Shown: positions 529 to 48,924 of the stretch, piece by piece
Layout of the letters: each line of letters opens with the position of its first letter
Numbering within the stretch: position 1 is the stretch's first letter
DNA from: Crossaster papposus
Taxonomy: Eukaryota > Echinodermata > Asteroidea > Velatida > Solasteridae
Reading direction: 5' to 3'
NCBI GenBank assembly: GCA_037893245.1
Contig: JBAIAA010000441.1
Span: 124,001 to 188,000 of the forward strand
Length of the DNA stretch: 64,000 nucleotides
Program-made: the position numbers and the translations under genes
Notes under the pieces: generated by a model
The model's input: the letters and a program-made list of their open reading frames with translations, nothing else
Database searches by the model: none
What the model was told of the DNA's origin: nothing

Positions 529-3500
529 GTTGACATGATCCTACTGGGAGGTGACCTCTTCCATGAGAACAAACCCTCCAGGAAGGCCCTTCATGGTGTC
601 ATGGCGTTGATCCGCAAATACTGCATGGGGGATCGACCGGTACAGCTTCAGTTCATGAGCGACCAGAGCTTGAACTTTGCTGCCAATCCGTAAGATTAGT
701 TTTTTCCTTTTTTTTAACCAGTTCGCGCCGGAGGACGTATATACACGCACAGCTTTCCCCAGATTCAAAACGGATGATGCATAAACACGTCATGAGCAAG
801 GCCGGAAATGTCTTTCAGCAGCGAGCAAGGCCAGAAATGTCTGTCAGCAGCGTGCAAGGCCGGAAATGCGTGGGTGTGTTTAATTCCCTGGTACCATCGG
901 CCTGAACCCGCCTCGAATCAAGTTTTGTTAAAAATAAATCCCCGCCTCGGCTCGGTGATGTTAAAATAATCCCGGCGCTAACTGGTTAAATGAATAAATG
1001 TTAACCCTAACCATCCCAAATCCGCAGAAACCCTCTTTGTAAATTGCTGGGTTTTGCAGGATTGAGGGTACTTGGAAGTTAATGCATCGGAGGAATTTGC
1101 AGGATTGAGGGCGTTTGGGATTTTTGCCACTGGAGGATAATGCAGGATCCAGGTCATAAGGCCCAAACTAATGTTGGATGATTTTGCAGGATTGAGGTTA
1201 ATACTTGGGTATTTATCCAAATGGGGATTTTAGAGGATGGAGGTTATTTGTTGCATATATTGATGAGTTCATTTGACCATCGACAGGTTTCCCGTCGTTA
1301 ACTATGAAGACCCAAACATCAACGTCGAAATACCCGTTTTCTCCATCCATGGTAACCATGACGATCCAGCAGGGGTAAGCTTCTAAATTTGTGTTTGTCT
1401 CTGCAAGGTCGCTGTCATCGATTTTATCCCATAATTTCCATCAAAAATGAAAACCCTGCTCTCTTTCCACAAATTTAGCCCTGCAGATATCCATCATGGT
1501 GTCATCATTATCTCCTTGATCATGTCCAAAAAGTTAAAAATTGATTTTAGTTCCGTTATATGAATGGGTCCTAAACTCCACAATTGCTGAATCTACCATT
1601 AGGGGATCAAGATTAAAATATTGAGTTGCGGCCTAAACTAATAAAATTGCGACTGCTTTTTTCTTTTCCTTCTTTGTTGCTTACAACTAGCTTGGCAATC
1701 TTTGTGCCTTGGACATATTGAGCGTGTCAGGACTGGTCAACTATTTCGGGAAGTGCAACTCACTGGAAAGCATCGACGTGACGCCACTCTTGATCCAGAA
1801 GGGTACAACAAGGCTATCACTGTACGGAATAGGTGGGTGCGATTGGGATAAGGTGGGCTAATATGGGTACAACAAGGCTGTCACTGTATGGTATAAGGTG
1901 GGTGCGATTGGGATAAGGTGGGTGCGATTGGGATAAGGTGGGTGCGATTGGGATAAGGTGGGTGCGATTGGGATAAGGTGGGTGTGATTGGGATAAGGTG
2001 GGTGCGATTGGGATAAGGTGGGTGCGATTGGGATAAGGTAGGCCCGATTGGGATAAGGTAGGCCCGATTGGGATAAGGTAGGTCCGATTGGGATAAGGTA
2101 GGCTTTAGGTTCAACAAGGCTATCACTGTATGGATTAGGTGTGTGTGATTGGGATAAGGTGGGTTACCTGGGTAACTACAAGGCTATCACTGTAGGCAAT
2201 ACGTGGGTGTTATTGGGATAAGGTCTGCTACATGGGTACAACAAGGCTATCACTGTATGGAATAGGTGGGTATGATTGGGAATAAGGTGGGCTACATGGG
2301 CACAACAAGGCTATCACTGTATGGAATAGGTGGGTGTGATTGGAATAAGGTAGGCTAATATGGGTACAACAAGGCTATAAATGTATGGAATAGGTGAGTG
2401 TGATTGGGATATTGTGGGCTACGGGTACAACAATAATCATAAATAGAAGGCTCTGGTGGTTTTGGCCACTACAGTGACTAAAGGGTTAATAACATTTGCC
2501 GTCGTGATAAATTGACTTTCTTATCCGTGCTGCAGGCTCTATACGAGACGAGCGTATGCACCGCATCTTTGTCAGCAGAAAGATCCGTTTCTATCAGCCT
2601 AAAGATGAGGACAATCCGTGGTTCCACCTGCTGGTCTTGCATCAAAACAGGTGAATAAAACTCAAACCCCCCCCCTTTTTTTACAATTCGCATGTTTCGC
2701 CAAAGTCAAATGTTAAGGAAAACACCTCAAAGTTGCGAGTTTTGCCCAAATTTGCATCCTCTTTCAATTTCACATCCCGGGCGAAGTCGTTAAAGACCAA
2801 ATTCACTGAATTTTGAGCATTTAGATGTGAGTTTGGAAATCTTTGGTTGAAGTCACATTTTGTTTTACTTTGAATGCAAAATCACATCATGCCCTTTCCT
2901 AATGTTGCCTCTGCCAATTTTCGTAACATTTTGCCAAAACTCCTCACGTTATGTCGTTTCAGGACCAAACACGGAGAGACCAATTACATTCCGGAGCAGT
3001 TCCTGCCAGATTTTCTGGATCTGGTGCTGTGGGGTCACGAGCACGAGTGCAAGGTTGAGCCCGCCTGGAACGACCGACAACACTTCTTCGTCACCCAGCC
3101 TGGCAGCAGTATTGCCACGTCACTGTGCCAGGGAGAATCCGTCCAAAAGTAAGAACTGCAGCGGCCTCGTGGTCTAGAGCATTGAATTCGTGGTCTGCGA
3201 TCATTCTGGAGGTTGTGGGTTCGAGCCCAGCCTAGGCTATGGTCCTAGTGGACTAGTTAATACCTATTCCAACCCTACTCGTAGCGTGAAGAGATCAGAT
3301 TATCTTGTCTTGTTTCAGTATGAGGGGCTGGTTCTTCCACACTTTCCTCTAGTAGCCCACACCTTGAGTGGCCTTATTTGCCCTTGTGATGGGAGATCAT
3401 ATCTTGTTTCAGTGTGAGGGGCTGGTTCCTTCACACTTTCCTCTAGTAGCCCACACCTTGAGTGGCCTTTGGCCTTGTGATGGCAGATCATATCTTGTTT

Positions 3501-6500
3501 CAGTGTGAGGGGCTGGTTCTCTATTCCCTCTAGTAGCCAACACCTTGAGTGGCCTTTGACTTGTGATGGCAGATCATATCTTGTTTCAGTGTGAAGGGCT
3601 GGTTCTTCCACACTTTCCTCTAGTAGCCCCCACCTTGAGTTGCCTTCGGTCTTGTGATCGGAGATCATACCTTGTTTCAGTGTGAGGGGCTGGTTCTTCC
3701 ACACTTTCCTCTAGTAGCCCACACCTCGAGTGGCCTTCGGCCTTGTGATCGGAGATCATATCTTGTTTCAGTGTGAGGGGCTTGTTCTTACACACTTTCC
3801 TCTAGTAGCCCACACCTTGAGTGGCCTTTGGCCTTGTGATGGGAGATCATATCTTGTTTCAGTGTGAGAAGCTGGTTTTTCCACACTTTCCTCTAGTACC
3901 CCACACCTCGAGTGGCCTTCGGTCTTGTGATGGGAGATAATACCTTGTTTCAGTATGAAGGGCTGGTTCTTCTACGCTTTTCTGTGTAGCCCACACCTTG
4001 AGTGGCCTTTGGCCTTGTGATGGGCGATTTGTGTTTAAAAAGAAATGGGGGTGGCGATAGTGTCAGAGTTCAATGGTAAGAAGGTAATTAATTAGTGAAG
4101 TAACTAATGAGTTAAATCACAATGCAATTGGTGACCCGAGTTTGTTCTCCCTGCAGACACATCTGTCTCCTGAAAGTGAGAGGTAAGGCTCTTAAGTGCA
4201 CCAAGATCCGGCTGGAGACTGTCCGGCCCTTCTACATGAGGGACATTTGTCTGCAGGACACCGATCTTAACCCGGGCCACGCCGGTATCCAGGACAAAGT
4301 GGAAGCATACTGCTCAGAAAGGGTAAAATAGGAAAAGACGACACTCTCGTTCCTTTTTGAAGGATGTCTTGTCTCCTTTCTCCCGTTTCATTTGCTATCA
4401 ACTGATTATTTGGTCACTTTAAACCTAATGTCCTCGGCATTACTAAGGGAATAAATGTGTGTTCGAGAGGTTTTAATCACTCTGTTTAATACCGCTTGGA
4501 GTCTGGGTGCTGATAATTACCCGAGCCTAAGGCTTCTGCCTCTGTGGCTCTACACGTATGCAATAAAGCGTATTTACTATGAACCAGACTATTACTGCCA
4601 TTGGCAACTTCGTTCCCAGGGTGTCGAGCTGTACGCACCCAACACTACACTACCTGCTCTTACTATTGGAGACGAGGTACGGTTGGAAATAAAGTGAGCC
4701 CTGGGGACGGGTATAATGCGACATCGCTTTGTTGCCAGCTGGTTTTAAACACTTCTAGCCATGTCTTTATTGTCCGTTTAATACCGGCCACATGACGGGC
4801 TCTCGACCAATAGGAATGCCTAAACTGTCCCAGGTATTTATGAATTTGGGTTAATAAACTGAGTTCAGTATATGTTTGTGATTAAGTGATTTGTTTTTGT
4901 TAATTTCAGGTGGAAGGACTGATATCGCTAGCTGAGGATGAACACACGGGAAATCCAAAACAACCTATACTGCCACTCATGAGGTTAAGGGTAAGAATAT
5001 AGAACACACAGGAAATCCAAAACAACCTCTACTACCACTCATGAGGTTAAGGGTAAGAATATTGTGATCTGTCACCACAAAATGAGAGTAAAGTCGCACA
5101 ATGTGATTCGGAGATATGGCCATCCAAAGTCAAAATATGAAGGGGTGGTCAATTTTGAGATTTTGAGTAATTTGGAAAGCCCAAGTCCTCCTCTACATAT
5201 TCTTATTTTTTGGGTGAGATCAGATGATCGAAAAGCTCTTAAATTACGCGATTTGGCGTAGTGTTTGCGTAGTTAGTGTTTTGATTAAAGCCCAATAGTG
5301 GTCTAATTAACACGGTAATTAAATATGCAAATCAGGTTTCGAAATTTAGATATTTTGTTCTTTATACAATAGTTTGTATGTGTGGAAAATTTAATGAAAA
5401 AATGATGATTAGAACATAGCCGTTGCTATGCTCAAACGAACCTTGTCCTGCTTTGTAATCTTTTGCATGTTTAACTCTTTCAGTGCCCATGACATTTAAA
5501 AAGTTTAACCCTAAAATGCCCAACTTCAAGTTTTGTTTTGTTTTTTTCAAAATTCTGTATAAAAAAAAGTAAATAAGTTTTATTCACCAAACTTCATGTA
5601 TCTTGCTCTCAACATCCTCTTCTGGAATATCCAAGTGATTCTGAATCAGAAAAGTAATCCCTTTCGCTGTCCAAATCGGCGAAAATTTCATTGATTTTCT
5701 CTGGAGATAACATGCGCGCTCGTTTCATGGGCGCCGCCATTTTTTCCACAAGACAAAACTCAATGTTACGCCCTCTTGCAAAAAAAATACAAGTCGCACA
5801 TGAATAAAAATGGTACCGGTACCATTAGAAAGAGTGAGAGCGCCCTCTTGTAATAACATGTTTACTCTACCTCGTACATGTACGAGGTTTGGAGATTTTA
5901 AGTACGAACATTACCTCGTACATGTACGAGGTTGGCGATTTCGAACTAACAAATATACCTCGTACATGTACGAGTTTGGCACTGAAAGAGTTAAAGTAAG
6001 TTTTCTCACAAACACGTTTTGTGAAACCCATGACTTTCTAAAGCTCTGTTTCTCAAGAATTTGAAAATACCAATATCTCAATTTTCAATATTTCCAACGT
6101 TACTCTCATTTTGTGGTTACAGGTCACATATAGAAATAGCAAACGGAAGTATTCAAACTTTTAGGTTCATATGACATTTGTTTCCATTAGGTTGACTACA
6201 GTGGGGGATTCGAGACCTTCAATGTGAACCGCTTCGGCCAGAAGTTTGTCAACAGGGTCGCCAACACCAAGGACATCATCCTCTTTCACAAGCGGAAGCT
6301 GCAGCCAGAGAAGAGGGGTGAGTTGGCCTGATTGGATTGGTCGGTGCAGGTCATGTGACCCGTAATGCTTCCTGCGATTGGCCATTTTGTTCATGATGTT
6401 CAGCTGTACAAGCATACTGCCAAAGTAGCCACACCTTGGAATTTTCAAGCATCTACTAGGAAAACGCTAGTAAATATTTGGTTTTATGCATATCAATGGA

Positions 6501-9500
6501 AGTATTTACTAATTTTCAAGTAAAAGGTTGTTGAGCAAATGCTAGTAGTAAAAGCTTTGAGTAAAAGCTTCTACTACATTTTATGCATATACATTCATGT
6601 AAATAAGTAAATTTTCAAGTAAATAGTATTTACTACTTTTTATGCATACGGCCCATGGACTGCAGGAAAAGGTGACACTCGTGATCCAAACATGACTTGT
6701 TTCTTTTCTTTTACTTTGGTTGGAGCAGACAAGAAACCCACTCAAGACATGGCCAACTACTTGAGGCCGGATGCTCTTGACTCTGGGCGGGTAGAGGATC
6801 TGGTCAAACAGTACTTCTCTGATGCGGACGAGGTAAGAAATAAGAGTTGACGGGAATGGGGTTTAGAAACCGTATGTTGAAAAATGGCTTGTTATAATTA
6901 TTATTTATTTCTGGTAAGCCTAGCTCGTAAAGCCTAAAGAAACCTGTAGAGAGATGACAATTAGTTACAGTTTTAGAGGTGGGAGGAAAACCTCAGAAGA
7001 ATATCCTGGGGAAAAACCCACGTAGTCGGGCAGGGACTGAAAACCCAATCCACATTATTGGCCCAGGCTGGATTTGAACCCGGGTCATAGTGGTGAAAGG
7101 CGAGGAAAAAACCGCTACGCCAACCTGACTCCCCGCTTCTTGCATTTAAATTCTGTCTTCAACAATCTTATTTACAATGAAGCTCCCATGGACAAGACAG
7201 TTTTGTAAATGCCATCAGTTACGGGCCATATCTTGAGATCCAATTAAGCTAGACCTAGCATTTTGTTTTCAACACTAGGTAAACACAAATTCTCTGGAAT
7301 TGTAAAAGGTGGGTAACGGTCACCTTAACCCTAAACCCCTAGGCTCTCACACTATAAAGCATACCAAACCCTAGCAAACTTCAACAACTGCACACAGTTC
7401 AGTAATTATTGGTACACTCTACTGAACCTAGCAGTACTAAACCTGCCAAACTCCAACAGTTTGAAGTTCTATTGACTTTGTACAGATGGGTTAGGGTTAA
7501 CTTCAACAGCTCACGCTGGTTAAGTAATTACTGGTACATTGTACTGAACCTAACAGTACTAAACCTTTTTTGTGTGTGTGAAGCACAAGCAGCTAAATCT
7601 TCTGTCTGAGAAGGGTCTTGGCCAAGCCATCCAGGAGTTTGTCGACAAGGAGGAAAGAGATGCCATCTCTGAACTGGTCAAGTTTCAACTGGAAGGAACC
7701 CAGGGACACCTGAAGAACCGCAAGACGTCCGACACCTTCATCCTTGAAGAGGTATTGTTGATGTTTCTTAACTTGAAAACTTGAGATAAACTTCAAGAAC
7801 ACTTTTGGCGGCGAGTTGGACAACTTACTGTTTGAAATGTGGTATTGCGCCCATTAACCAGTTCGCGCTGGATGACGAATATAAACGCAAAGTTTCCTCC
7901 AGATACAAAACGCATGACGCATAAACACGCCACGAGCAAGGCCGGATATGTCTGTCAGCAGCGAGCAAGGCCAGAAATGCGTGGGTGTGCTTCCCGGTAC
8001 TGGCGGCCTGAACCTGCTTCGGATCGAGTTTCGTTAAAAATAATCCCGCGCGTCGGCTTGGTGATGTTAAAATAATCCCGGCGCGAACTGGTTAAGCCAA
8101 ACAAACACCATTGCACAATATTTGTATAATATCACTATTTATTACGAGACAGCCAGACTTGTAAAAATATTTGTGGCCCAAATTAAAATCTTTCAATATA
8201 CCTTTCAATTTTTGTCTTGCAGTTGAAACATTTTAAGGAGGAGAGAAAAAAGATGTCTGAAGCTGACCAGTCCAAGGAAGTCAGAGCGGTAATATTTTTT
8301 CCCTCAAATCCTTTTTGTTGTTGTCGTAAACAACTTTATTTGTGACCAGGTGTACAAAATAGATATCGGGCTTTTAAGTATTTCTACTTTTCCTAGTTTT
8401 TTTTACTTTGTTCTACTATTCCTAAGAATTCCTACTTTTTCATACTTTTTCATACTTTTACTACTTTCCCCTACTTTTACTACTTTCCCCTACTTTCCCC
8501 TACTTTTCCCTACTTTTCCCTATTTCTTTCTACTTTTCCCCTACTTTTCCCCTACTTTTCCCCTACTTTTTCCCTACTTTTTCCCTACTTTTTCCTTCTT
8601 GTTCTAACAGATCTGAAAAATGAAATCTCATTGAATAATTTCATAATGAACGGCAATCATTGAAAAAACCTGACTATTTTCAGACACTGCCCCCAATTTA
8701 TTATGTTTTGTTTGCAATATCGGGCAATGGAGAAGGCCAAGGAGAAGCAACCCCAGCGAGGAGGTGACTACAGCGACAATGACGATAGAGAGATACCCTC
8801 CATTGACTCAGACCCTGTATAGTCCAATCCTAATAACTTGTTGTCTTTGTTCAGGCGATGGAGAAGGCCAAGGAGAAGCGTCTCCAGCAAGGAGGTGACT
8901 ACAGCGAGGACGTTGACCAAGACATAACCTCCATTGACTCAGATCCTGTATAGTCCAATCCTGATAACTTGTTGTCTTTGTTCAGGCGATGGAGAAGGCC
9001 AAGGAGAAGCGTCTCCAGCGAGGAGGTGACTACAGCGACGACGTTGACCAAGACATAACCTTCATTGACTCAGACCCTGTATAGTCCAATCCTAATAACT
9101 TGTTGTCTTTGGTCAGGCGATGGAGAAGGCCAAGGAGAAGCAACTCCAGCGAGGAGGTGACTACAGCGACGACGTTGACCAAGACATAACCTTCATTGAC
9201 TCAGACCCTGTATAGTCCAATCCTAATAACTTGTTGTCTTTGTTCAGGCGATGGAGAAGGCCAAGGAGAAGCGTCTCCAGCGAGGAGGTGACTACAGCGA
9301 CGACGTTGACCAAGACATAACCTTCATTGACTCTGACCCTGTATAGTCCAATCCTAATAACTTGTTGTCTTTGGTCAGGCCATGGAGAAGGCCAAGGAGA
9401 AGCGTCTCCAGCGAGGAGGTGACTACAGCGACGACATTGACCAAGACATAACCTTCATTGACTCTGACCCTGTATAGTCCAATCCTAATAACTTGTTGTC

Positions 9501-13254: not shown

Positions 13255-13441
13255 CAAGTCAAGGTACCTCAACCAATCAGATTCGTCCTTGTATGAAAAC
13301 CCACCAATCAAATGCCTTGTTTTAAACTGTTTCAAAGTTGTGCATGAAGAATAGTTAGGACTGGGTCGTTTTAAAGTTTACCGAATGTTGGCATTCACAA
13401 AAAACCGGAAGATACCCCTACAAACGTAGTCGCAACCCCAA

Positions 13442-13447
13442 AATAAA
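13442..13447 (+). terminator. Candidate MRE11 polyadenylation signal
   Basis: AATAAA about 190 nt after the MRE11 stop codon, followed by A-rich sequence. It is the first canonical hexamer after the stop that I noticed; the true cleavage site is not shown by the sequence. Confidence 0.45.
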
Positions 13448-13633
13448 TAAAAACTAGAAAAGAAAACTTGGATTGAGTGCAGACCTCCGCCCTAACTGCA
13501 GAAACGTGCCCCCAATGTTAACGGTTCTCTAGTACAGCGCCCTCGATTGGCAAATGTAGCCCAACCGCAAAAATCTCCCAACGTTAAACAAATCGTTCAA
13601 AGCGATCCAGATTCCTGATCTAGATCCAGATCA

Positions 13634-13885: not shown

Positions 13886-13959
13886 CCGAGTTCTTAAACA
13901 ATCTTAATTGATGGAATCGTCTCTGACCATCCATAAGCTATCTTCTCCCCTTAATAAAT

Positions 13960-19145: not shown

Positions 19146-19337
19146 CTATAAATTTGCATAAACAGACACCTCGGTCTTGACGTTCTCCCTTTCCTGGATG
19201 ATGATTGGCTGCAGCTGGAAGGACACCGTCTTTGGTAGTGGCACTGTTGATAACGAGGATGACGACGCCCTCTTGTGATGAGCCCCGTGGTAGGGGGCGG
19301 TGTCGGAGCACGGTGCTGACGAGGTGTCGGATGGTTG
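19146..19337 (-). other. Open extension beyond the receptor stop codon (63 codons)
   Basis: After the TGA at 19338-19340 the same frame stays open for 63 codons to a TAG at 19146-19148. The extension is Ser/Thr/Pro-rich with basic patches (SDTSSAPCSDTAPY ... KTEVSVYANL), like the cytoplasmic tail before it. It may be tail sequence reached by read-through or alternative splicing, or 3' UTR that happens to be open. Confidence 0.45.
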
Positions 19338-24979: not shown

Positions 24980-25018
<39 letters not shown>

Positions 25019-37000: not shown

Positions 37001-40000
37001 GCCGTGCGCACAAATGTGACCCACCACCCCAAAACCAGGCTGAAGTCGAAATTGTTCATGTTTTTTTTTTATACCATTGGATTAGCGTTTTAAGCTGTAG
37101 TGGACTCAAATAGGTGGTATACTTTTGAAGTTATATCTTTTTGAAGTTAGGAAGTGTCAAGGGATGCTTTTGAGAAAACGAGCACTAAAGTTGTTCATCA
37201 TTATCATACATTATTGAGCAAAAATCAGGAGAAGGCCGATATTATCTAACGAGTTTTAACTAATGATTTATGAAAAAAAAAAGAAAAAAAATAATAATAA
37301 TAAATTGTGCAATGCCGTGGTGGGTCACAAATACACACACAGGAAATGCATCATGGGTCACATGACATATAGACAATCGGTCCAATGAGAGCTCCCAAAA
37401 AATTAGAGGATACCGGCGCCTTTGGATAGAGTGAAAGTGCTATTCAGGATTCACGGGTAAAGTTTTCACTCTGCAGGGGACAATGATCATTAAAAGTACC
37501 TTGATTTGCAAGTGCCGTCCCCGGAATGGTGACTTTAGTTGAGTAGTCGCTAAATTCGACAATGTGTTCTTGATTGCTTGACACCACCTCATAAATTGAC
37601 TCTGTAGACAAAGTCAAGGTTACAAATGTAGGTGTGAACTACACTGTTTAAATTAGTGTTCAAAACTCAACTTGAAGGGATCGTATACGTTAGGTACCGT
37701 AATTAGGAACCCATTGTTTGTTTCAATCCTATATAGTTATAGATATATACCATAAAACTAACCTGTAAAAATCTTATTTCAAAAGGTGGTAGCGATTTTG
37801 AGTTATTGCCGAAAATCTGGAGCCGTTATGTCCACTCACGCAGAAAGAATAATCTGCATTGGAATACACAATCTGAGAAACGTCACTGCAGTAACGCTTC
37901 TCAGATTCAATTTTTTTTGGGATAAAATGTGATAACTTTTTCCATAACCGCAGTACTTCAAAGTGAAAAGTTTCTAAAAATGCATTATACTATCCAAAGC
38001 TGCTGTACTTCTTACCAAGTAAGTTTTTATTGCCAATAATTTTTGGAGTAATTACCAAACGTATACGATCCCTTTAACACTGGACTGTTCCAGATTTGAC
38101 CATAAGCCCTGCCAACCACAAGTTTGTGTACGATTTCTCATAATTACAGCAAAAACAAATGGTGTATACTACAGGGTGTATTGTTTTCACCGCCCATAGA
38201 CTTGAAGTATAATAAGAACTTACGGTAGTTAGTGGTTGATTTTAAGGTGAGCCGTGAGCGTCCCCTGTCGTCCACGTAGGAAGTTATCACGTCCCCGAAG
38301 CTTTCGAAGCTCCCCATGAACCTCAGGAACAAGCCGGCATCTTTGTACTAAAAATCACAACAATAAACCAATCGGAACTCATCAGTTTGTATCACGTGAC
38401 TCGCGTGCAGCCAATAGGCGAACTCAGAATTAGCATTGGAACCGAATCTCTCGGTGCTTTTGCGCTCGTACCAACCACCAACCAAACTGGGTGCTGGGAG
38501 GAATAACCTCGTTCACAAAACAGTTACTTTTGTAAAGGAAGCACCAACTAAAGAAGAAGATACATTTTGGGCATCGATGGGTACTAATCTTTGTGGGGTA
38601 GCCTGTATATGCCTAAGAAGGGAATGGAGACATTTGGAACTGCAGTAGGCATTACTACGGCATTACTTCGCATGTGTGAGATATGCGCCACGGAGGTCCG
38701 AAATTCGGTACTCTCTGGAGACGTGGACACAATAGGGATTTTGGAAGTGAAAAGGTCTCCAAAGGGTAATTTCTATAGATGAATAGGTCTCCACTAGGAA
38801 TTTCACTAATTAGAATTATTTGGATTGTACTTAAATTACTTAAAAACTAGGGTTAGGATGTGGGTTAGGGTTAGTGTTTGGGTTAGGGTATGATATGTGA
38901 CCCAGCACGAGTAAATGAGACACTTGGGGGCAAAAATAAAAATTGAGATTTTTATTTCATTATATAAAGCTAAACAAGCTTTAAATGATGAAATCAAAAT
39001 CTCAATTTTCATTTTGCCTCAAAGTGTCTCATTTACTCGTGCTGGGTCACACATAGGGTATATTGGGTCAACATTTCAACCACAAATAATTGTGGTTAAA
39101 ATGGGAGCATTCTGAAAAACGTGCTCGACTTTCTAACAAAGCCGTGTCTCCACAGTGATACAAAAATGCGAATGAGTGCACGCAGCTAACCCTTCGGCAA
39201 GCGGGTGAACGCGGATAGCTCAGCCGCGCGTTTCCCCCCAGTGGTCGGTTGGCGTCGGCCTGGGGACATCAAGACATCTACGGAGATGCAGTGTTCGTAG
39301 TCAGCTTATTCCTCCATGGTTAAACACTCGACCGTCGTGCTCATCATGTAACTTGAGATACCTCCACACACACAATTCTCGCTCCGTTCTTTTTATAGCT
39401 TCTCCTATAACGCTTGAGAGTGCTTTAGAAAAACTCCTCCAATTCCAACAACACGGTTTTTTTCTTTCTACTTGAATAAATCAGTTTAGCCGCGTCGCGA
39501 TGCAGACGGATCGAGCTTTATATAAAGATATATATGTAGGTGTTGTTCTTTTATCAACCGATAATGTAGTAACCAACGAATAATGTAGTAACCAACCGAT
39601 AACCAACTGACAACGGATAATGTTGTAAACAACGGATAATGTTGTAAACAACGGATAATGTAGTAAACAACAGATAATGTAGTAACCGACGGAGTAACCA
39701 ACTGATAATGCAGTATGACCAACGGATAAGGTAGTAACCAACTGATAATGTAGTAACCAACTGATAATGTAGTAACCAACCTATCATAGTAACCAACGGA
39801 TAATGTGGTAACCAACCGATAATGTAGTAACCAACCGATAATGTAGTAACTAACCGATAATGTAGTAACCGACCGATAATGTAGTAACCGACCGATAATG
39901 TAGTAACCAACCGATAATGCAGTATAACCAACTGATAATGCAGTATAACCAACTGATAATGCAGTATAACCAACTGATAATGTAGTAACCAACTGATAAT

Positions 40001-43000
40001 GCAGTATAACCAACTGATAATGCAGTATAACCAACTGATAATGCAGTATAACCAACTGATAATGCAGTATAACCAACTGATAATGTAGTAACCAACTGAT
40101 AATGTAGTAACCAACTGATAATGTAGTAACCAACTGATAATGCAGTATAACCAACTGATAATGTAGTAACCAACTGATAATGTAGTAACCAACCGATAAT
40201 GTAGTAACCAACCAACCGATAAAGTAGTAACCAACCGATAATGTAGTAACCAACCAACCGATAAAGTAGTAACCAACCGATAATAGTGACCAACTGATAA
40301 TGTAGTAACCAACCGATAATAGTGACCAACTGATAATGTAGTAACCAACCGATAATGTAGTAAACCAACCGATAATGTAGTAAACCAACCGATAATGTAG
40401 TAACCAACCGATAATGTAGTAACCAACCGATAATGTAGTAACCAACCGATAATGTAGTAAACCAATCGATAATGTAGTAAACCAACCGATAATGTAGTAA
40501 CCAACCGATAATGTAGTAACCAACCGATAATGTAGTAAACCAATCGATAATGTAGTAAACCAATCGATAATGTAGTAAACCAACCGATAATGTAGTAACC
40601 AACCGATAATGTAGTAACCAACGGATAATGTAGTAACCAACCAACCGATAATGTAGTAACCAACCGATAATGTAGTAACCAACTGATAATGCAGTATAAC
40701 CAACTGATAATGCAGTATAACCAACTGATAATGTAGTAACCAACTGATAATGCAGTATAACCAACTGATAATGCAGTATAACCAACTGATAATGCAGTAT
40801 AACCAACTGATAATGCAGTATAACCAACTGATAATGCAGTATAACCAACTGATAATGTAGTAACCAACTGATAATGCAGTAACCAACTGATAATGCAGTA
40901 TAACCAACTGATAATGCAGTATAACCAACTGATAATGTAGTAACCAACTGATAATGTAGTAACCAACTGATAATGTAGTAACCAACCGATAATGTAGTAA
41001 CCAACCGATAATGTAGTAACCAACTGATAATGTAGTAACCAACCGATAATGTAGTAACCAACCAACCGATAAAGTAGTAACCAACCGATAATGTAGTAAC
41101 CAACCAACCGATAAAGTAGTAACCAACCAACCGATAAAGTAGTAACCAACCGATAATAGTGACCAACTGATAATGTAGTAACCAACCGATAATAGTGACC
41201 AACTGATAATGTAGTAACCAACCGATAATGTAGTAAACCAACCGATAATGTAGTAACCAACCGATAATGTAGTAACCAACCGATAATGTAGTAACCAACC
41301 GATAATGTAGTAACCAACCGATAATGTAGTAAACCAATCGATAATGTAGTAAACCAACCGATAATGTAGTAACCAACCGATAATGTAGTAAACCAATCGA
41401 TAATGTAGTAAACCAACCGATAATGTAGTAACCAACCAATAATGTAGTAACCAACGGATAATGTAGTAACCAACGGATAATGTAGTAACCAACCAACCGA
41501 TAATGTAGTAACCAACCGATAATGTAGTAATAACCAACCAACCGATAATGTGGTAACCAACCGATAATGTGGTAACCAACCGATAATGTGGTAACCAACC
41601 GATAATGTGGTAACCAACCGATAATGTGGTAACCAACCGATAATGTGGTAACCAACCGATAATGTGGTAACCAACCGATAATGTGGTAACCAACCGATAA
41701 TGTAGTAACCAACCGATAATGTAGTAACCAACCGATAATGTAGTAACCAACTTATAATGTCACACAAATTGACCGATACTGTACCAATAACCGATCTTTT
41801 CTCTTACATAATTATTGGTTAAAACCGATAATGTGATAAATATTAGTGTAGTACATTTTACTACACTATCTGTCATTTTGTGTGACAGTATCGAATCGTA
41901 TCGGTTCATTATCAGTTGCATCAGTTAATAGTCTTCTGCCCAGGGTGCAAAAGTCACTGTTGTGCACCACCATACGGTCCTTAAAGTGATTACATGCCAG
42001 CTTTATTAAAAGTACGACTGGAGTCATCTCTAGCTTTCACGGAAAAGGCCTTGACATTAAATTATTCGAAACACACGCCAGCAGCGGGGTGCGAAATTAC
42101 CCCATCGCTCATGTTTTTGCCGTCGTTCATTAATTATGCAAACCGGCGCATTCTAATCATACGTCCTTGACGCCCGAATTGTTGGAATGTATTATGCATC
42201 GTAGTTACGGCTGCCGTGTCATATCCCAAGAGGTATGTGTTTTTTTATTTTTTAACAAGTCCCAAGGTAAATGAACATCACACTTTTATGGAGATGTACT
42301 TTTGAAGTGCGCCCTCATTAAAGACTCATTTTTTGTTCTTGACGGAATCCTTTAAAATGTACCCCTAACCCTCGTATCTTACTTACTGACTTTTAAATCC
42401 CCCCAAGTCTTTTAACATTTATGCCACTTAATATTAATACGAACCAGGGCCAATTTCATAGAGCTGCTTAAGCGTACAAATTGCTTTTTAAGCACAAAAC
42501 AATCTTGCTTAGTAAAACCAGCTTACCAGCCACAACTCCATGTGATGTATATTATTTGTGATTGGTATCTAGCTGTTGTTTAACTTAGCATAACGATCAC
42601 ATGGAAATTTGGCCCCTAACTCGATTTACCAAGCAAGGGCTTTTGTGCTTAAGCAACTATTTTTGCTTAAGCAGCTCTATGAAATATGCCCAGTACTACT
42701 AGTTAAAAGGGGCCGAGCGTTATTGGCAAATATAAACGAGAAAAGACATGCATAATAAAGTTAAGAAAAACTGACCGGAGTACCAGTCATCGGTAATAAA
42801 GTTTACGTTCCGTTTGGCTGGTAACCTGGTTTTGCTTACTCAGTTTCGTCGGATCACGTACCTGGTTAATGTTTACCCACATGGCAGTAAAACTCCCAGA
42901 ATCCAGAAGATTGTCAACCGATTCCAAGATATTCTATAAATAAGATGCACAAATAATAATACTCTAAAACATTTCTCAGAAAAAGGCCACCGTAGAATGA

Positions 43001-46000
43001 AAACTGCTGTATCGACTCAGTGATCTTGACTTCTTTTTTGTTTCATCTAGAAGAGAGATTCCCCGTCTATCTTAGCTAGTTTTGTTTTAGTTGGATGGAA
43101 CTGAAAATAGGGTGTTCCGAGTTTTCTTGTTGTGACCACCCTGTACTGTGTTTAGCAAAATAGCACAATGGCTATGAGTTGGACATATTGAGTTTATAAC
43201 AATGTTTACAAAGGGGTAATTACTTTTTATTTATATTTTTACTTTATTCAACATCCGACAGCGATATATAGCGCCAATTATAGAATAGATAAATGAGAGA
43301 AAAAAAGTGAAGAAGTTACAGTTTTGGAGGTGGGAGGAAAACTCCAGAAGAATATGTGACACGATCAAGCGGAATGAGTCGGATGTCGGCCTCGGTCAAA
43401 AAATAAGTTTTCTTGTAGTTTTAAAGAGGGCATCTGTACGTTTTAAAACTGAAAACCCCATGTTATTGTTGATACGATGTTTTGTTGTCGAGTTATGTAC
43501 ATTTGTTTAAATACCAAAGAAAAACACAGTTCTGATTAAAACATTTTTGGGATTCCCCGACATCCGACTCATTCTGTGACATCCGACTCATTCCGCTTGA
43601 TCGTGTCACATATTCTTAAGGGGGAAACCCACAGAGTCAGGCAGGGACCAAAAACCCAATCCATTATTGACCCAGGCGGGAATCGAACCCGGGTCACAGC
43701 GGTGGAAGGTGAGGAAAGAACCGCCACTTCGCCAACCTGACTCCCAAGTAGCAAATGTGCAAGTAGGAAGAGTGCCCCAATAATGTTACCATTAAAGTTA
43801 CCATTAAAGATTGTTCCACTAAAAGGGACCTCCGTGAATCGGCAGTGATACTGAGCTTGCATTGACCAAGTTCGATCAAGGAACTATAGTTAACTAGTGG
43901 TAAGTTCGTAGTGTCATTAGGGCATGCGCACTGAAGTTGAAGTGCGAACGACTCTAGTCAAACTATTGACCATTAACTGCCAAACTGGTCCTCTCTGTAC
44001 TGTGCTATCATAAAGCGGCTATTGGTTACCATCGATGCGACCAACCGGATAGGCTGGTCGTGAATAGCTGACTAGACTAGTCCAACCATCGTCGACTAGC
44101 CTGAGTTCGATCAGAGTTTAGTCAAACTATAGTTGACTATAGTCCTTGATCGAACTTGGCCATTGACGTGCCTATATCACGTGTCTATACCACGTGTTTA
44201 TACCTGTATGTAGGTATCCCCGGAATCCAATGAGAGCCCAGTGAGGTTCTTCTTGGTTAAGACCTCGAGCAGGATACCAGCGGCCAGGGCTAGCTGCCCG
44301 GAGTACGCGATGTTAGCCGGCATGGTACCCGTGGCTAGCGCGCTGACTGATGCCTCGAGATCCGCGGTGACCATATTGCTTGCATTCGAAACCTATACGA
44401 ACCAACAGACAAGAACACCAAGAAATACTGCTTTAGCGTATACATACACTGTCATTTTACCTGCTCAACTAGAATTAGAAGCACTCGGTAGAGCGCGGAC
44501 ATCAGCTACCCCAACCGCAAGAATGCGCCCCAACCGCAAAACACCATATTTCCCAATGTTAAAAATCATTAATTCAAAGTAATCCAGATTCCTGATCAAT
44601 ATGAAAATTTAACGGAATCATCTTTGACTCATAAGCTATCTACCCATTATCACGGAAAAACTGAATTCACAATAACGCGAACAAAAAATGAATTCGCCAT
44701 ATCACGGAAACAATTAATTTGCCATAAGGCGAAAAAAACCGAATTGTCATATCACGGAAAAAACTGAATTTGTCATAAGGCGGAAAAACTGAATTCGTCA
44801 TATCACGGAAAAAAATGAATTCAACTTAATATGGAAAAACCGAATTCGCCATAAGACAGAAAAACTGAAAAATGTTCCGTTGCGTGTAGTCACATTGGCC
44901 TGTTTGAAGATAATGTGCCCAACCTACAGATCTCGATGTAAAAAAAAACCTCCAGGATAGCTCATTAAATTAAGCTTTTAAACAACATTTGGATTAATTG
45001 CTTTTTTTATAGTTGCAAAATAGTATACTGTCCCTTAAACGTCTCTGACTAATATCATAAAATTCCTGTGTCGTCCCGTGTTACTGTTGAATCTTTCTAT
45101 TACCCAACCTTTATAATTGACCTAAACAAAATATGAAATGCCCTGTGCTAGCGTCGTCTATTTCAAGTGTGGAGCACTTGTCGACGCAATAGGCCGCAAT
45201 ATTTGACGGTCGCACGCTCGATTCGTGACGACGGTGGCATGCTCGTATAGAGCGCTCATCAGCGGTAGCGCGGCAAGTCAAAACGATACTGCGCTACAAA
45301 GGGTTGGTCGAAAAAATATCCCTTGACATTATTTCCGTTCATCCATCATCAGATATTAGTTTGGTTGGAAAAGGGATAATGGATGGAAAGGTAGGATGGT
45401 TGGAAAGGTAGGATACATCATTGGTAATTGTTATGAATGGGTGGATTTGTGGGGTAATATTTTATAGTGAATATCGTTTAACTGACCAGTCCAAAGTTTT
45501 GAAATCATGGATGCTGAGTAAAGCAAGAAAAACGTCGTTCATTTTTCAACCGAATTGTCGGGCAGTGTTTCATATGTTGTTCTTGGTTTTTTTTTCGCGA
45601 TCGCCGTCCGTCGATCGTTATTTGTTTCTTTTCAATTCGATTTTTTGGAACAATTATTAGATATATCTAGCCCAATCATTTTGCTGGATGCCTTGAATCA
45701 TTATTCACTTTTAAACAAGTAAGATATTTCATAATAATTCGATAGTAAACATTTTCGATATCTGCAAATGGTACCTTTAGAGGAAAAATACAACATTTGC
45801 AAAAATAAAAAATAAATGACAAAATTATCATGAAATATTTTACTGGACTGTTTAGGAATGACAGTCTAAAGCATCCAATACAATCATTGCTTTTGGTACT
45901 GTGTGCTGACATTTTTAGGTATTTTTGTATACATTTCAAACGCTGGTCGGGCGACCAGTGTTGGAATAGAATTGGCTTTTTGTTTAAATACTGCTCATAA

Positions 46001-48784
46001 TTGTCATATTTAGTTATTCAACATTTTCGTTGCAATTGGTTACACACATTGTGAAGAGTACTTAATCCAGCTATAGGCTGATTCTCTGACGACCTTACAA
46101 TTCCCCAACGTTTATAAATTGCTCAGAAGAAAGATATTATTACTGTTTAAAACCAATGCAGGCGTTGGGGGGAAATCCGTTATAATTTGTATTGTTGCGT
46201 CATTTGTAGCATCTTTAAATAGATTCGCAGTGTAGTGCGTCATGAGCTATTTTGGTCGCCGGCGGCTACCTGATCTACAATTTAGACGTCTGGGCGAAAC
46301 GAAAATTGCCAGGGCAGGGAACCAGACTTACCTTGGTATAGAGATCCACAAGGGACTGGAGGGAGCAACCAGTGTAGTTCACTGGTCCCCACACATTGTT
46401 GGCTCCGCATAGTCGCACCGCCGTACCTATACAAAGTCATAACAAAAAAATCGGATTTGAAAATCCCCAATTCGAAAATCTCCCTACCATTACGGCAGTC
46501 TTGTAACCTGACTTCAGTAACGGGTTTTTCTCTTTTTTGTTTACCTGGTTCGCCAGGGGCGCACTCCACGGAGACATTCCGCGCAGATTCAGACACGGGC
46601 CATACCAGGCCGTTCAGTTGCTCTTGGGGGCACGTTTGGCAGCTTGTTTCCAGGAGAACTTGGAATAAAACTGTCCAGAAAAAAACACACATAAAACGAT
46701 TGACACCCTTGTCAGTCAGGTATACAGGTTCAGTAGATAATGGTACATCGTTTAAATAATAACTGGTAGTTGTACAATATACACACGAGCGGCCATTAAG
46801 CCGAATATATTAAAAACAAACGTATACAAAAAACTAGAAAAAGCCATTGCTAGTTTGTATGTATTCAGATTTCGGACCAATATTTCGACCGTGTATAGCG
46901 AACCTTTGTCAAAGGCAAAACGGGATCTTTTTGGCGCCCGGATTTACCCGAGCTACTGCGAACACACCCGGTGTTCTCTCTCTAAATGTAAAGTGGTGAA
47001 AACTCACTTTAAAAAACTCACAAGATTGAAATTGAGATTTTCTGAGTGAAAACAACTCCAGAAAGAGTAAATCTTCACTCTTTTGAGGAGCCATAAAGGA
47101 CAGCCAGTCTTGTTGGCTCCTCCACAGAGCAGTAGTTTTCACTCATATCTGAGTAGTTTTCACTCATTTGTGAGTAGTTTTCACTCATTTGTGAGTAGTT
47201 TTCACTCATTTGTGAGTAGTTTTCACTCATTTCTGAGTAGTTTTCACTCATTTTGAGTAGTTTTCACTCATTTCTGAGTAGTTTTCACTCATTTTTGAGT
47301 AGTTTTCACTCATTTTTGAGTAGTTTTCACTCATTTTTGAGTAGTTTTCACTCATTTTTTGAGTAGTTTCCACTCATTTAAGAGTAGTTTTCACTCATTT
47401 AAGAGTAGTTTTCACTCATTTTTTGAGTAGTTTCCACTCATTTAAGAGTAGTTTTCACTCATTTAAGAGTAGTTTTCACTCATTTAAGAGTAGTTTTCAC
47501 TCATTTAAGAGTAGTTTTCACTAATTTTTGAGTAGTTTCCACTAATTTTTGAGTAGTTTCCACTAATTTTGAGTAGTTTCCACTTATTTAAGAGTAGTTT
47601 CCACTCATTTTTGAGTAGTTTTCACTCATTTTTTGAATAGTTTCCACTCATATTTTGAGTAGTTTCCACTCATTTTTGAGTAGTTTCCACTCATTTAAGA
47701 GTAGTTTTCACTCATTTCTTGAGTAGTTTCCACTCATTTTGAGTAGTTTTCACTCATTTTGAGTAGTTTCCACTCATTTTTGAGTAGTTTTCACTCATTT
47801 TTGAGTAGTTTTCACTCATTTTTGAGTAGTTTTCACTCATATCTGAGTAGTTTTCACTCATTTTTGAGTAGTTTTCACTCATTTTTGAGTAATTTACACT
47901 CATGTTGTGAGTAATTTTTTACCCTCTTTTTTAGTAGTTTCAGTCTCAATTACTCTTTTTGAGAGTAAGCATTTTAATTCCTTCACAGGGTACAGCAAAA
48001 GCAAAACGGTGTACACCATACCTTTAATATTAACCCCAAAACATCCCCGGTCGGTCCCGGTCCCGGCCCCTAAACGGAATAATCAGCGCCTGAGTCAACA
48101 GGGCGATCGTTTCGCTAGCGGCGCACTCCCGATCTTCCCTTCCCTAATTATTTTCTTCCTCCATTTGTGAATCTCTCTTTTAATATCAAGAGGCAGGTAG
48201 TCAAGGGTGTTTGTCCACCGTCTCTGTCAGATTCGGCAAAAAGGAAATGGCTTCGCCTGGGGGATTGTTTTGGCTCTCGATAGCTCCTCTTAAAAGGGGC
48301 CACGAAGTGCATTTTCACACTGTGAATAATATTTTTTTGTTTGCGTTTGAATACGGTAGTGTGTGCAATAATGGGGCCTCCATTTTGACGTCTTCAACCA
48401 GGCACACTCTAAAAATGCTCTCATCTGATTTTTTACCCGTAATCCGAGTTTAATTGGACCTGATTCCTTTTCTGGGTCACAATTGTCGTTTTCCTGATCA
48501 AAATTGACACTTTCTCTTAATCATTTTCCGGGTCATATTGAAGCTGAAATTGTTGGAAAGGTGTGCTTTGTTATAACACCCCAACCCCTATCCCAGCGTC
48601 CCCCGAAAACAGATTACAATTTTTTTTATCCTGAAAAAAAATCTTAATCCAAACGGAAATGTGATTCCAGGTCAAATATAGCCAGATTTTTTTTTAGAGT
48701 CTAAGTTTTTATTATTATTTTGTTATTTTATTAATACATTATTATATATTTTTCATTTTTTTTTTTTTTTTAAGTTTTTTTAGG

Positions 48785-48818
<34 letters not shown>

Positions 48819-48924
48819 TTTTTTTTTTTTTTTTGGGGGGGGGGTTGCCTACTTTTTGCGATATCAAGATCATGAAGCAACACTTACCAATGAACCCCAA
48901 TGACGTAAGAAGAGTCATGCGCAT
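19338..48924 (-). CDS. Adhesion-type GPCR (HRM-GAIN-GPS-7TM), ADGRA-like, 20 coding exons
   Basis: Plasma-membrane receptor. Exons, 5' to 3' on minus: 48888-48924, 46545-46670, 46332-46426, 44204-44392, 42862-42933, 38224-38347, 37500-37601, 35400-35484, 33502-33666, 30722-30827, 28294-28394, 26726-26828, 25695-25787, 25140-25264, 24826-24892, 23270-23361, 22257-22383, 21144-21185, 19794-20183, 19338-19442. Phases agree throughout; 2346 nt, 781 residues. Order: signal peptide (1-24); HRM (about 26-76, GLVWP and WGPVNYTGC); GAIN (about 90-360); GPS ending CRCTHL/TTFAV, cleaving after Leu359; TM1-7 (about 376-612). TM3 (DACRAV) and loop 2 (YCALP) keep the conserved Cys pair, and TM6 has WIF. 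The tail has a 15-Gly run. An AG directly before the ATG suggests a non-coding upstream exon. FAGHITLVAG, HYFHLSYSFWM and SIIVPVALIGL resemble ADGRA, but LRR and Ig domains are absent. Ligand unknown. Confidence 0.93.
19524..19567 (-). mobile_element. Fragment of the GGGAGTCAGG-head SINE
   Basis: Only the tRNA-like head remains, ending AACCTGACTCCCCT on the plus strand. It lies in the last receptor intron. Confidence 0.65.
19737..19800 (-). repeat. Duplicated donor edge of receptor exon 19 (33-bp unit)
   Basis: On the minus strand TTAAAG/GTACAGACTTTGAG is followed 33 nt later by TTAAAG/GTACCGACTTCGAG. Both carry a GT in the same phase. Using the distal donor would add 11 residues (VQTLRLLLPLK) without shifting the frame. 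Confidence 0.75.
20275..20467. mobile_element. piggyBac-like MITE, TTAACCCTTT termini
   Basis: TTAA flanks both ends. The termini are CCCTTTGCACTC and TTTAAAGGG, the CCC(T)n start typical of piggyBac-type elements. It is 193 bp without coding sequence. Confidence 0.75.
20573..20667. repeat. CCCCACC / GGTGGGG simple repeat
   Basis: Runs of CCCCACCCCA and CCCCTCC on plus put closely spaced GGGG runs on the transcribed RNA of the receptor gene, a G-quadruplex-prone tract. It lies in the intron between exons 18 and 19. Confidence 0.85.
20813..21000. repeat. Dispersed foldback-like repeat, also at 51252-51475
   Basis: Shares TTGGCACACAGTCAGAGTAT and AAGATATTTGGCTA with 51252-51475. Internally TATAGGTAGAAAAACAAGCAA is mirrored by TTGCTTGTTAATCTACCCAT. 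It has no coding potential. Confidence 0.65.
21674..21871. mobile_element. TGTAGTCGAG-type inverted-repeat element
   Basis: The ends are TGTAGTCGAGTCC and GGACTCGACTACA. The interior contains variable numbers of a CAAGTCCCTG decamer and the CATTGTTCATC / CTTTGTCA words common to all copies. Other copies: 28466-28679, 50412-50677, 58282-58499. Confidence 0.8.
21990..22085. repeat. Short inverted repeat, relative at about 55273-55330
   Basis: GACACTTGGGGAGA and TCTCCCCAAGTGCC are inverted copies around a TGTCTCC core. A second version, with its flanking ACCAAAATCTGTCGTTCT text, occurs at about 55205-55330. Confidence 0.55.
23721..24366. mobile_element. TGTGAC-type foldback element, 646 bp, TA-flanked
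   Basis: TA/TGTGACCTGTCACC at the left and GGTGACAGGTCACA/TA at the right, with inverted similarity extending inward. It is an uninterrupted relative of 5063-6128. It lies in the receptor intron just downstream (minus sense) of exon 15. Confidence 0.85.
25968..26690. repeat. CCCAA pentamer satellite
   Basis: Near-continuous (CCCAA)n, in the second part interrupted by CCCTGT units in a higher-order pattern. All six frames stay open over long stretches only because of the pentamer. The minus-strand transcript carries (UUGGG)n and the array ends about 36 nt beyond the receptor exon 12 donor. Confidence 0.95.
26960..27958 (+). repeat. 54-bp minisatellite grown from the left end of a GGTAGG-type MITE, about 18 units
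   Basis: Each unit is the first 54 bp of the MITE family: AAAGGTAGGATACACCATTG, then TAATTGCTTGAATTATCA and ATGAATGGGTGGATGT. The remaining MITE body follows at 27959-28222. Because 54 is a multiple of three, open frames of almost 200 codons occur on both strands; they are not genes. Confidence 0.93.
27959..28222 (+). mobile_element. Body and right end of a GGTAGG-type MITE
   Basis: It follows the family from AAATATCGTTTAACTGACCTG to the terminus AATGGTGTATTCTACC. The left terminus is the expanded array 26960-27958. Confidence 0.8.
28466..28679. mobile_element. TGTAGTCGAG-type inverted-repeat element
   Basis: TGTATAGTCGAGTCC at the left and GGGACTCGACTACA at the right, with the shared CATTCCTTTGTCATTGTTCA interior. 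It lies in the intron between receptor exons 10 and 11. Confidence 0.8.
28983..29523. mobile_element. Inverted-repeat element with CCATAAAAGCATTCTA termini, 541 bp
   Basis: CCAATTCCATAAAAGCATTC near the left end is mirrored by GAATGCTTTTATGGAATTGG near the right end. The interior shows no coding frame. Confidence 0.75.
29524..30721. other. Receptor intron, nothing recognised
   Basis: No exon, RNA or clear transposon end was found. Short GGAGACATT / AATGTCTCC inverted words near 30300-30345 may be element debris. Confidence 0.4.
31022..31273. mobile_element. TGTGACC-type foldback, 252 bp, TA target duplication
   Basis: TA/TGTGACCCGCTCCCACGAAA at the left and the inverted copy ending GGGAGCAGGTCACA/TA at the right. 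The arms run for about 70 bases each, so the element could fold along much of its length. Confidence 0.85.
31305..32590. mobile_element. Non-autonomous DNA element with AGGCTACATAAAAAAAAT termini, 1286 bp
   Basis: AGGCTACATAAAAAAAATCG and GTTTCTCATCAG at the left are matched by CTGATGAGAAACAATTAA and the inverted terminus at the right. The interior has no transposase-like frame. A GC-rich patch lies at about 31870-31935. Confidence 0.75.
32987..33545 (-). repeat. Exon-edge array: end of receptor exon 9 with donor, about 5 copies, with TTAGGG tracts
   Basis: The plus-strand motif TTTTACCGATTTGAATCGCT recurs at about 32989, 33128, 33217, 33371 and 33498. The last is the real donor end of exon 9 (33502). 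Between copies lie GAATGAACAGG, GGTTATGGTTT and telomere-like GGGTTA tracts, the longest at about 33268-33340. Each copy retains the GT of the donor on the minus strand, so four decoy donors lie downstream of the real one. Confidence 0.88.
33697..33830. repeat. 48-bp tandem repeat, 3 copies, upstream of exon 9
   Basis: TCAGTGGGGGCTTATTGAGA units start at 33697, 33745 and 33793. In the minus sense they lie just before the acceptor of receptor exon 9. Confidence 0.85.
34105..34701. mobile_element. Long foldback with CCATTTGCG termini, itself interrupted
   Basis: CCATTTGCGCGTGACC at the left is mirrored by the right end GTCACGCGCAAATGG. Long arms include GGTACACTGACTTG and CTCCAGACCAAAGAC. Compared with 53460-54023, about 190 bases (about 34176-34366) with repeated CGATCGAGGA words are inserted near the left arm. 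Confidence 0.8.
34955..35206. mobile_element. GGGCCAATTTCA-type foldback element
   Basis: GGCCAATTTCACGGAGCTGC at the left and GCAGCTCCGTGAAATTGGCC at the right are inverted. The subterminal GCTTAGCA / TGCTAAGC words recur inside. Other copies: 42447-42691 and 63694-63938. Confidence 0.85.
35713..36027. mobile_element. GGAGACATG-type element
   Basis: CCTCTGGAGACATGAACACA at the left and CATGTCTCCACAGTGATAC at the right are inverted over about 12 bp. The interior contains GGGTTAGGGTTAGTGTTTGG. Other copies, both interrupted: 38707-39161 and 56026-58036. Confidence 0.75.
36518..36818 (+). mobile_element. GGTAGG-type MITE with both ends, 301 bp
   Basis: Inverted termini TTAAAGGTAGGATACACC and GGTGTATCCTACCTTTAA, both with TTAA at the edge. 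It is shorter than other copies because part of the CGATCG-rich centre is missing. It serves as a reference for the family in this window. Confidence 0.88.
37015..37329. mobile_element. TGTGACCC-type foldback
   Basis: TGTGACCCACCACC at the left and GGTGGGTCACA at the right. The interior is unlike the other TGTGAC elements except at the termini. It lies less than 200 bp from receptor exon 7. Confidence 0.7.
37672..38077 (-). mobile_element. GGGATCGTATACG-type MITE, 406 bp
   Basis: AAGGGATCGTATACG at the left and CGTATACGATCCCTTTAA at the right. It shares its whole interior (TCTGAGAAGCGTTACTGCAG and others, reversed) with 59277-59667 and 62694-63074. It sits between receptor exons 6 and 7. Confidence 0.87.
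38707..39161. mobile_element. GGAGACATG-type element interrupted by a TGTGAC foldback
   Basis: It matches 35713-36027 on both sides of a 158-bp insertion at 38896-39053. The family words GGATGTGGGTTAGGGTTAGT and CACAGTGATAC are intact. Confidence 0.8.
38896..39053. mobile_element. Nested TGTGACCC foldback, TA-flanked
   Basis: TA/TGTGACCCAGCACGAGTAAA at the left and the inverted GTGCTGGGTCACACA/TA at the right. The arms include AAAATTGAGATTTT and AATCTCAATTTT and cover most of the element, making a near-perfect hairpin. Confidence 0.87.
39162..39544. other. Receptor intron, nothing recognised
   Basis: GC-rich at first (about 39190-39300), then ordinary sequence leading into the 19-bp satellite. 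No exon signal on the minus strand. Confidence 0.4.
39545..41757. repeat. 19-21-bp satellite (GATAATGTAGTAACCAACC), about 2.2 kb
   Basis: Units of 19 bp (GATAATGTAGTAACCAACC) mix with 20-bp and 21-bp variants (GATAATGCAGTATAACCAACT). A large-scale repeat is visible: the CCAACCGATAAAGTAG landmark series near 40206-40330 recurs about 850 bp later near 41056-41210. Minus-strand open frames of 620-754 codons are by-products. It lies in the receptor intron between exons 5 and 6. Confidence 0.95.
41758..41887. mobile_element. TGTCACACAAA foldback abutting the satellite
   Basis: TGTCACACAAATTGACCGAT at the left and TTTTGTGTGACA at the right are inverted. The interior holds AACCGATAATGTGATAA, a word very like the satellite unit, so the satellite may have grown from such an element. 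Confidence 0.65.
42447..42691. mobile_element. GGGCCAATTTCA-type foldback element
   Basis: GGGCCAATTTCATAGAGCTG at the left and CAGCTCTATGAAATATGCCC at the right, with TTAAGC subterminal words. It lies about 170 bp from receptor exon 5. Confidence 0.85.
43310..43745 (-). mobile_element. GGGAGTCAGG-head SINE interrupted by a TGTGAC element
   Basis: On the minus strand the SINE head, B box (CCCGGGTTCGATTCCC) and body are present, but the body is split at AGAATA by 43355-43610. It is the third recognisable copy of this SINE. Confidence 0.82.
43355..43610. mobile_element. Nested TGTGACACG foldback, TA-flanked, 256 bp
   Basis: TA/TGTGACACGATCAAGCGG at the left and CCGCTTGATCGTGTCACA/TA at the right. 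The arms continue through GAATGAGTCGGATGTC, and part of the right arm is duplicated (CATCCGACTCATTC twice). Confidence 0.88.
43866..44160. mobile_element. Inverted-repeat element CCAAGTTCGATCAAGG, 6-bp flanking repeat
   Basis: CCAAGTTCGATCAAGGA at the left and CCTTGATCGAACTTGG at the right, flanked by CATTGA on both sides (43860-43865 and 44161-44166). It lies about 40 bp from the donor of receptor exon 4. Confidence 0.75.
44648..44885. repeat. Irregular repeat of CACGGAAAAACTGAATTCGCCATA
   Basis: About six units alternate ATATCACGGAAAAA and ATAAGGCGAAAAA around CTGAATTCG. It lies in the intron between receptor exons 3 and 4. Confidence 0.75.
44886..45401. other. Receptor intron, nothing recognised
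   Basis: AT-rich with one GC-richer patch at about 45170-45290. No exon or transposon terminus identified. Confidence 0.4.
45402..45779 (+). mobile_element. GGTAGG-type MITE, nearly complete
   Basis: It starts AAAGGTAGGATACATCATTG, keeps the central CGCGATCGCCGTCCGTCGAT palindrome-like block, and ends GATATCTGCAAATGGTACC with a small deletion in the terminal repeat. Confidence 0.82.
47140..47925. repeat. GAGTAGTTTTCACTCATTT minisatellite, about 35 units
   Basis: Units of about 22-24 bp alternate TTTTGAGTAG, TTTAAGAGTAG and TTTCTGAGTAG spacers between TTTTCACTCA cores. Sequence just left of it (46990-47060) has inverted GAGTGAAAAC words. It lies in the first coding intron of the receptor. 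Confidence 0.92.
47926..48887. other. Receptor first intron; simple repeats only
   Basis: GC-rich words at about 48045-48080, then AT-rich DNA with a TTATTA tract, a poly-T run and a poly-G run between about 48750 and 48845. The poly-G lies about 45 bases from the exon 1 donor. Confidence 0.5.

Follow-up and report, generated by a model that had tools for sequence, protein, structure and literature searches.

Exon edges within tandem arrays in MRE11 and an adhesion receptor gene of the starfish Crossaster papposus: probable counterparts of the amphioxus 'mirages'

In this study, a 64,000-nt stretch of the Crossaster papposus genome (contig JBAIAA010000441.1, positions 124,001 to 188,000; hereafter the window) was analyzed for tandem copies of splice junctions in two genes, MRE11 and one encoding an adhesion G-protein-coupled receptor (GPCR). 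The window is part of the contig here called C441, in a genome of 1.02 Gb. Local alignment placed 4 of the 70 mapped exon edges within tandem arrays in which the repeat unit crosses the edge and covers 8 nt or more on each side. These arrays are most probably (about 0.8 in our estimate) 'mirages' of the amphioxus type, i.e. ordinary minisatellites that were born in place and happen to include an exon edge. Tandem copying at splice sites was not detectably more frequent than in nearby intron in this sample.

Tandem arrays at exon edges in the window

MRE11 occupies positions 529..13254 of the plus strand with 17 in-window exons, the start of the protein lying upstream of the window. Its 658 aa correspond to the human protein starting near residue 52, contain no internal stops and find MRE11 (9ulo, E 1.7e-176) as the best match in PDB; a genome search for a second MRE11 locus gave none with a match below E 0.05. 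The adhesion GPCR gene lies on the minus strand (19146..48924) and has 19 mapped exons. Pfam 7tm_2 and GPS were matched in its product, with GAIN (E 3.4e-05) under the cut-off. The reading frame of this gene implies an extra exon between mapped exons 15 and 16, which was looked for in the mapping and not found. The two genes gave 33 (MRE11) and 37 (GPCR) edges, 70 in all, instead of the approximately 34 junctions counted in the first-pass annotation of this DNA. The MRE11 exons 7 and 12 of that annotation are exons 8 and 13 here, and its receptor exon 19 is our exon 18.

For each edge, the 50 + 50 nt around it were locally aligned to the surroundings, and a copy had to cover at least 8 nt on each side of the edge. 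The identical four window edges were recovered when the range was cut to 330 nt. With plain Tandem Repeats Finder (TRF), arrays covered only 2 of the 70 edges, so the count of affected edges is method-dependent.

Three of the four edges belong to MRE11, and all three arrays were found by alignment and by motif. The exon 3 donor (1801..2433, plus strand) is represented by the real site and six further copies of a 64-bp unit made of about 32 nt of exon and about 32 nt of intron, with the real donor after 1832; nested inside is a donor-like array of 20-bp units (1889-2099). The exon 8 donor (4940..5062, plus strand) is present in two copies of a 62-bp unit, the real donor after position 4990 and the decoy donor after 5052. 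At the exon 13 acceptor (8723..10131, plus strand), 10 copies of a 131-bp unit (about 93 nt of exon and 38 nt of intron) are preceded by a partial first copy at 8723, which lacks an acceptor, so that nine decoy acceptors precede the real one, which is at 10034. The fourth edge is the donor of GPCR exon 9 (32950..33540, minus strand; motif and alignment), with five copies among TTAGGG-like, i.e. telomere-like, repeats; its real donor follows 33502, and of the four decoys recognized by motif three were also recovered by alignment.

It had been claimed earlier that five exon edges were copied together with their splice site, in about 7, 2, 11, about 5 and 2 copies. The copy numbers found here (7, 2, 10 plus a partial one, 5 and 2) agree with this, and units running from coding sequence into intron were likewise seen by alignment at the four edges. 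The fifth edge, the donor of GPCR exon 18 (19740..19799, minus strand; motif), is a genuine tandem of two copies of about 27 nt; with only about 6 exonic nt it falls short of the 8-nt rule and stands outside the four. Another small array, three 13-bp units, starts at the donor of GPCR exon 4.

Splice scores were obtained with weight matrices built from the window's own edges. By this measure, 19 of the 26 decoys in the four window arrays equal or outscore the real site. At MRE11 exon 3, this applies to 11 of 12 in-register decoy donors (real donor 7.0), and at exon 8 the decoy donor equals the real one (both 9.9). Four of the nine decoy acceptors of exon 13 score above the real acceptor (11.8), the remaining five reaching 10.2, and three of the four decoy donors of GPCR exon 9 match or exceed the real donor (8.0). 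The decoy of GPCR exon 18 is weak (2.9 vs 6.9 for the real donor). Judged by score only, many but not all copies retain usable splice signals.

Rate at edges and in neighbouring intron

Within a range of 2,500 nt, 103 of 499 evenly spaced window positions (20.6%) lie in arrays by the same test. A matched control was defined by a range of 330 nt, with each position weighted by copy number. Near-exon intron, 30-252 nt from an edge, then gave 5.1% (59.6/1,177.6; raw 184/1,302) vs 5.7% for the window edges; all intron of both window genes gave 7.3% (176.9/2,431.9; raw 754/3,009), and exon interior in the window a raw count of 11/312. A profile of matches at successive offsets around the 34 window donors is flat, with 1-4 matches per offset and no peak at the edge. 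When expectations were taken from TRF, 2 window edges were observed vs 11 expected by coverage and 1.07 expected by unit (P 0.29).

The same comparison was made elsewhere in the genome with 84 exons (74 clusters), of which 80 belong to the myosin head family and four to metallophosphatases. Excluded before counting were three loci (L003, L005 and L008) on the apparently bacterial contig C8, one (L004) that is apparently not a split gene, and COX1 and mitochondrial loci (L009-L014). Edges were placed by an automatic rule, which succeeded for 152 of 168, the other 16 being unplaceable and likewise excluded; 133 of the placed edges were non-redundant. Four of the 133 (one acceptor, three donors) are affected, vs 2.2% of nearby intron (copy-weighted 57.9/2,670.9; raw 129/2,742; P = 0.33). 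Pooled with the window, this amounts to 8 of 203 edges, or 3.9% (95% confidence interval 1.7-7.6%), vs 3.1% of nearby intron, copy-weighted (P = 0.28); by edge type, 6 of 100 donors and 2 of 103 acceptors are affected. Chance similarity as the source of the copies is ruled out by 1,520 shuffled-flank trials (10 for each of the 152 edges placed elsewhere), none of which was positive. On these matched rates we reject enrichment at splice sites, and the excess over random minisatellite placement put forward in the first-pass annotation is not upheld.

Arrays elsewhere in the genome and competing explanations

The duplications at the four affected edges outside the window differ in age. At the acceptor, in a myosin gene (L063), the duplication is fresh, with a shift of 129 nt and full identity over the 100 nt that surround the edge; a search of the genome for a close second copy gave partial matches only. 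The copy at donor L064 is old and diverged, GTAAGT at the donor having become GTTTTT in the decoy. Donor L037 is also old, with a decoy common to contigs C125 and C238, and at donor L036 a series of short units has decayed; by eye, both L036 and L037 look like decayed copies. Over about 0.8 kb, C125 and C238 are nearly identical in the exon and carry many small differences in the intron. Judging from this sequence they are probably uncollapsed haplotypes, though MRE11 is present once.

A scan of 160 kb of flanking contig identified two FGFR-like genes, which were left out of the rates. In the first (L027, C441:234300-235600), 47 kb past the window, a kinase exon (Pfam PK_Tyr_Ser-Thr, E 3.8e-08; best match in PDB, FGFR1) has its 3' part and donor within an array of 3.9 copies of a 139-bp unit (C441:234644-235191), where decoys scoring 8.8, 8.8 and 9.7 accompany a working donor of 11.6. 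The second copy, 21 kb on (L029, C441:255050-256300), carries a 21-bp unit derived from the donor, repeated 27 times, along with a single degenerate 139-bp copy, and its decoys score 3.8 (26 short units) and 6.1 vs 8.8 for the working donor. Beside the array, the pair is identical at 359/369 and 378/397 positions on the two sides (95-97%). These copies may be tandem paralogues or joined alleles. Since such near-identical copies carry differing arrays, the make-up of an array can change more quickly than its flanking sequence.

The excess claimed earlier would make splice junctions a mutational hotspot for tandem duplication, through GT-rich slippage, R-loops or transcription-linked breaks. Small arrays that start at or near donors (the 20-bp units of MRE11 exon 3, the 21-bp x 27 run of the second FGFR-like copy and the 13-bp x 3 array of GPCR exon 4) speak for it, as do the greater share of donors among the affected edges and the low expectation under the TRF unit null. 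Against it stand the rates obtained throughout with one method, both in the window and elsewhere, and the flat donor profile, and we regard a hotspot as unlikely; GT-rich donor slippage and R-loops are not needed to account for these rates. In this sample, copying of the edges stays close to the background set by a genome rich in minisatellites, which corrects the hotspot first proposed. Several points nevertheless weigh against reading the arrays as ordinary minisatellites. Set against the 1.07 edges of the TRF unit null, the four edges found by alignment give P of about 0.02 (Poisson, calculated by hand), a result in favour of the earlier claim but from a comparison that mixes detection methods. 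The rate is based on two window genes and on exons drawn almost entirely from one protein family (80 of 84) with automatically placed edges, and two of the four matches elsewhere (L036 and L037) have a score of 18, which is the threshold. The significance test assumes a fixed control rate and independent positions, and the interval still allows an enrichment of up to about 2.5-fold.

It would be a considerable surprise if the copies were retained for function, as alternative donors or acceptors or as cassette exons regulating the gene. Strong decoy sites, as at MRE11 exons 3 and 13, are what such a role would call for, and in the exon 13 unit the 93 nt are in phase and seven of nine decoys lack an internal stop. 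However, this unit, read through where its own frame is open, reaches GTA TAG; its would-be cassette donor, CCTGTATAG, scores -1.3, the lowest real donor having 4.0; and the decoys vary more in their exonic part (6.2% per site; 3.4, 5.9 and 9.3% by codon position) than in the intronic part (2.1%), so constraint on the exonic part is no tighter than on intron. We reject a cassette-exon function of the unit. At MRE11 exons 3 and 8, extension to the next decoy meets an in-frame stop, and the full protein therefore depends on the copy joined to the exon. The FGFR-like decoys, weaker than the working donors, and the decayed decoy of L064 likewise argue against retention for function. As for arrays produced by misassembly of repeats or of heterozygous haplotypes, two haplotypes are apparently present in places (C125 and C238) and the FGFR-like pair, which shares one contig, might represent tandemly joined alleles. 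Yet several per cent of sites differ among the copies of most arrays, the L037 decoy occurs on both contigs and MRE11 is single, and we reject this explanation as extremely unlikely.

Under the preferred reading of the arrays as mirages, local tandem duplication, by slippage or end-joining, would take in exon edges at about the rate of neighbouring intron. The copy joined to the exon would remain a working splice site and leave the exon intact; all other copies would be intronic and spliced out and, as with any minisatellite in an intron, could drift, expand or decay. Such a duplication would be tolerated, since it leaves one junction intact and the spliceosome goes to the site joined to the exon. 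The idea of tolerance had been raised in the first-pass annotation and fits the arrays seen, where the copy joined to the exon still has a good site. We infer that splicing passes over the decoys in this species.

Host genome and relation to known junction duplications

Contig C1841 is the mitochondrial genome (16,330 bp), and its COX1 follows the echinoderm code. When aligned with human COX1, AAA falls on Asn at 7 of 10 positions (two Lys, one Glu), ATA on Ile at 16 of 24, TGA on Trp at 15 of 16 and AGA on Ser at 4 of 8. The 16S rRNA, ND2 and ND1 genes are located on the strand opposite COX1, an inversion that we take to be typical of starfish. By its mitochondrial code the host is thus an echinoderm, most likely a starfish given the gene order, and not a cephalochordate as in the published mirage cases seen. 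Contig C8 (5.3 Mb; L003, L005, L008, L009, L011 and L012) carries bacterial-looking COX1 and phosphatase genes with long open frames and is probably a bacterial symbiont or a contaminant in the assembly.

TRF arrays with a period of at least 15 make up 7.8% of a 224-kb stretch. Very long minisatellites were observed in the GPCR introns and upstream of the gene, at 25969-26699 (5-bp x 143), 39555-41760 (19-bp x 113), 47131-47918 (21-bp x 37) and 60794-61282 (22-bp x 22). A short dispersed element with ends like AAAGGTAGGATACACCATT was seen by eye in both orientations in the window (near 11890-12730, 13990, 27960-28210, 36520-36820, 45400-45780, 49910-50350, 52220-52830 and 63230-63570) and is perhaps a dispersed repeat resembling miniature inverted-repeat transposable elements. 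Related sequence forms an array of 18 units of 54 bp at 26966-27954.

The closest counterparts of the starfish arrays are the mirages of amphioxus, described from the Adh3, globin (BflGb6 and BflGb9) and TnC genes, those of PGBD5 being similar but imperfect (PMC3087553, PMC3902484). Their units of 10-72 bp (Adh3) or 150-160 bp (globins) extend across exon-intron boundaries, whether at donors or at acceptors; AG/GT is present in many of the copies but not in all, copy number varies between haplotypes, and splicing is reported not to be disturbed (PMC3087553, PMC3902484). The same boundary-spanning units, at both donors and acceptors and with partial retention of splice signals, were found here. 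The two FGFR-like genes differ in copy number, but they may be paralogues. Unlike the amphioxus cases, the arrays lie in an echinoderm, affect three edges of one gene, include nested donor-only arrays and come with a matched-control rate. In human CBS there are two junction duplications: 844ins68, a 68-bp duplication of the intron 7/exon 8 junction, and the 31-bp variable number tandem repeat c.1444_1467+7(16_21), whose notation we read as the end of an exon plus 7 intronic nt (PMC2630376). These are polymorphic alleles of one gene, whereas several genes are affected here. Intron gain by tandem genomic duplication, e.g. in potato RdRp, also ties tandem duplication to splice-site sequence (PMC4974935); there the duplication creates an intron, whereas in the starfish the copying affects edges of introns that already exist. 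No new intron was seen, intron positions not having been compared with relatives. An earlier echinoderm report of duplicated junctions was not found in searches of which few named the group and which left subscription literature largely uncovered.

This is a known kind of repeat with an ordinary origin, here carried into echinoderms: the lancelet phenomenon, matched by two human CBS alleles, is extended to them with a matched-control rate. Copies of junctions can mislead gene predictors. At MRE11 exon 3, about a dozen equal or better donors lie behind the real one, and at exon 13 nine acceptors of similar score precede it; with so many strong decoys, RNA-seq of these exons would put first-come, exon-definition and distance models for the choice of splice site directly to the test. 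More tentatively, and with somewhat less than even confidence, duplicated junctions may be seen as a standing load in this echinoderm genome, in which about 1 edge in 25 has decoys, many of them matching the real site in strength; even past a dozen such competitors, the spliceosome would still settle reliably on the exon-joined one. If so, they would constitute a natural library on the factors other than site strength that govern which splice site is chosen, and would continually supply raw material from which new exons and introns could arise.
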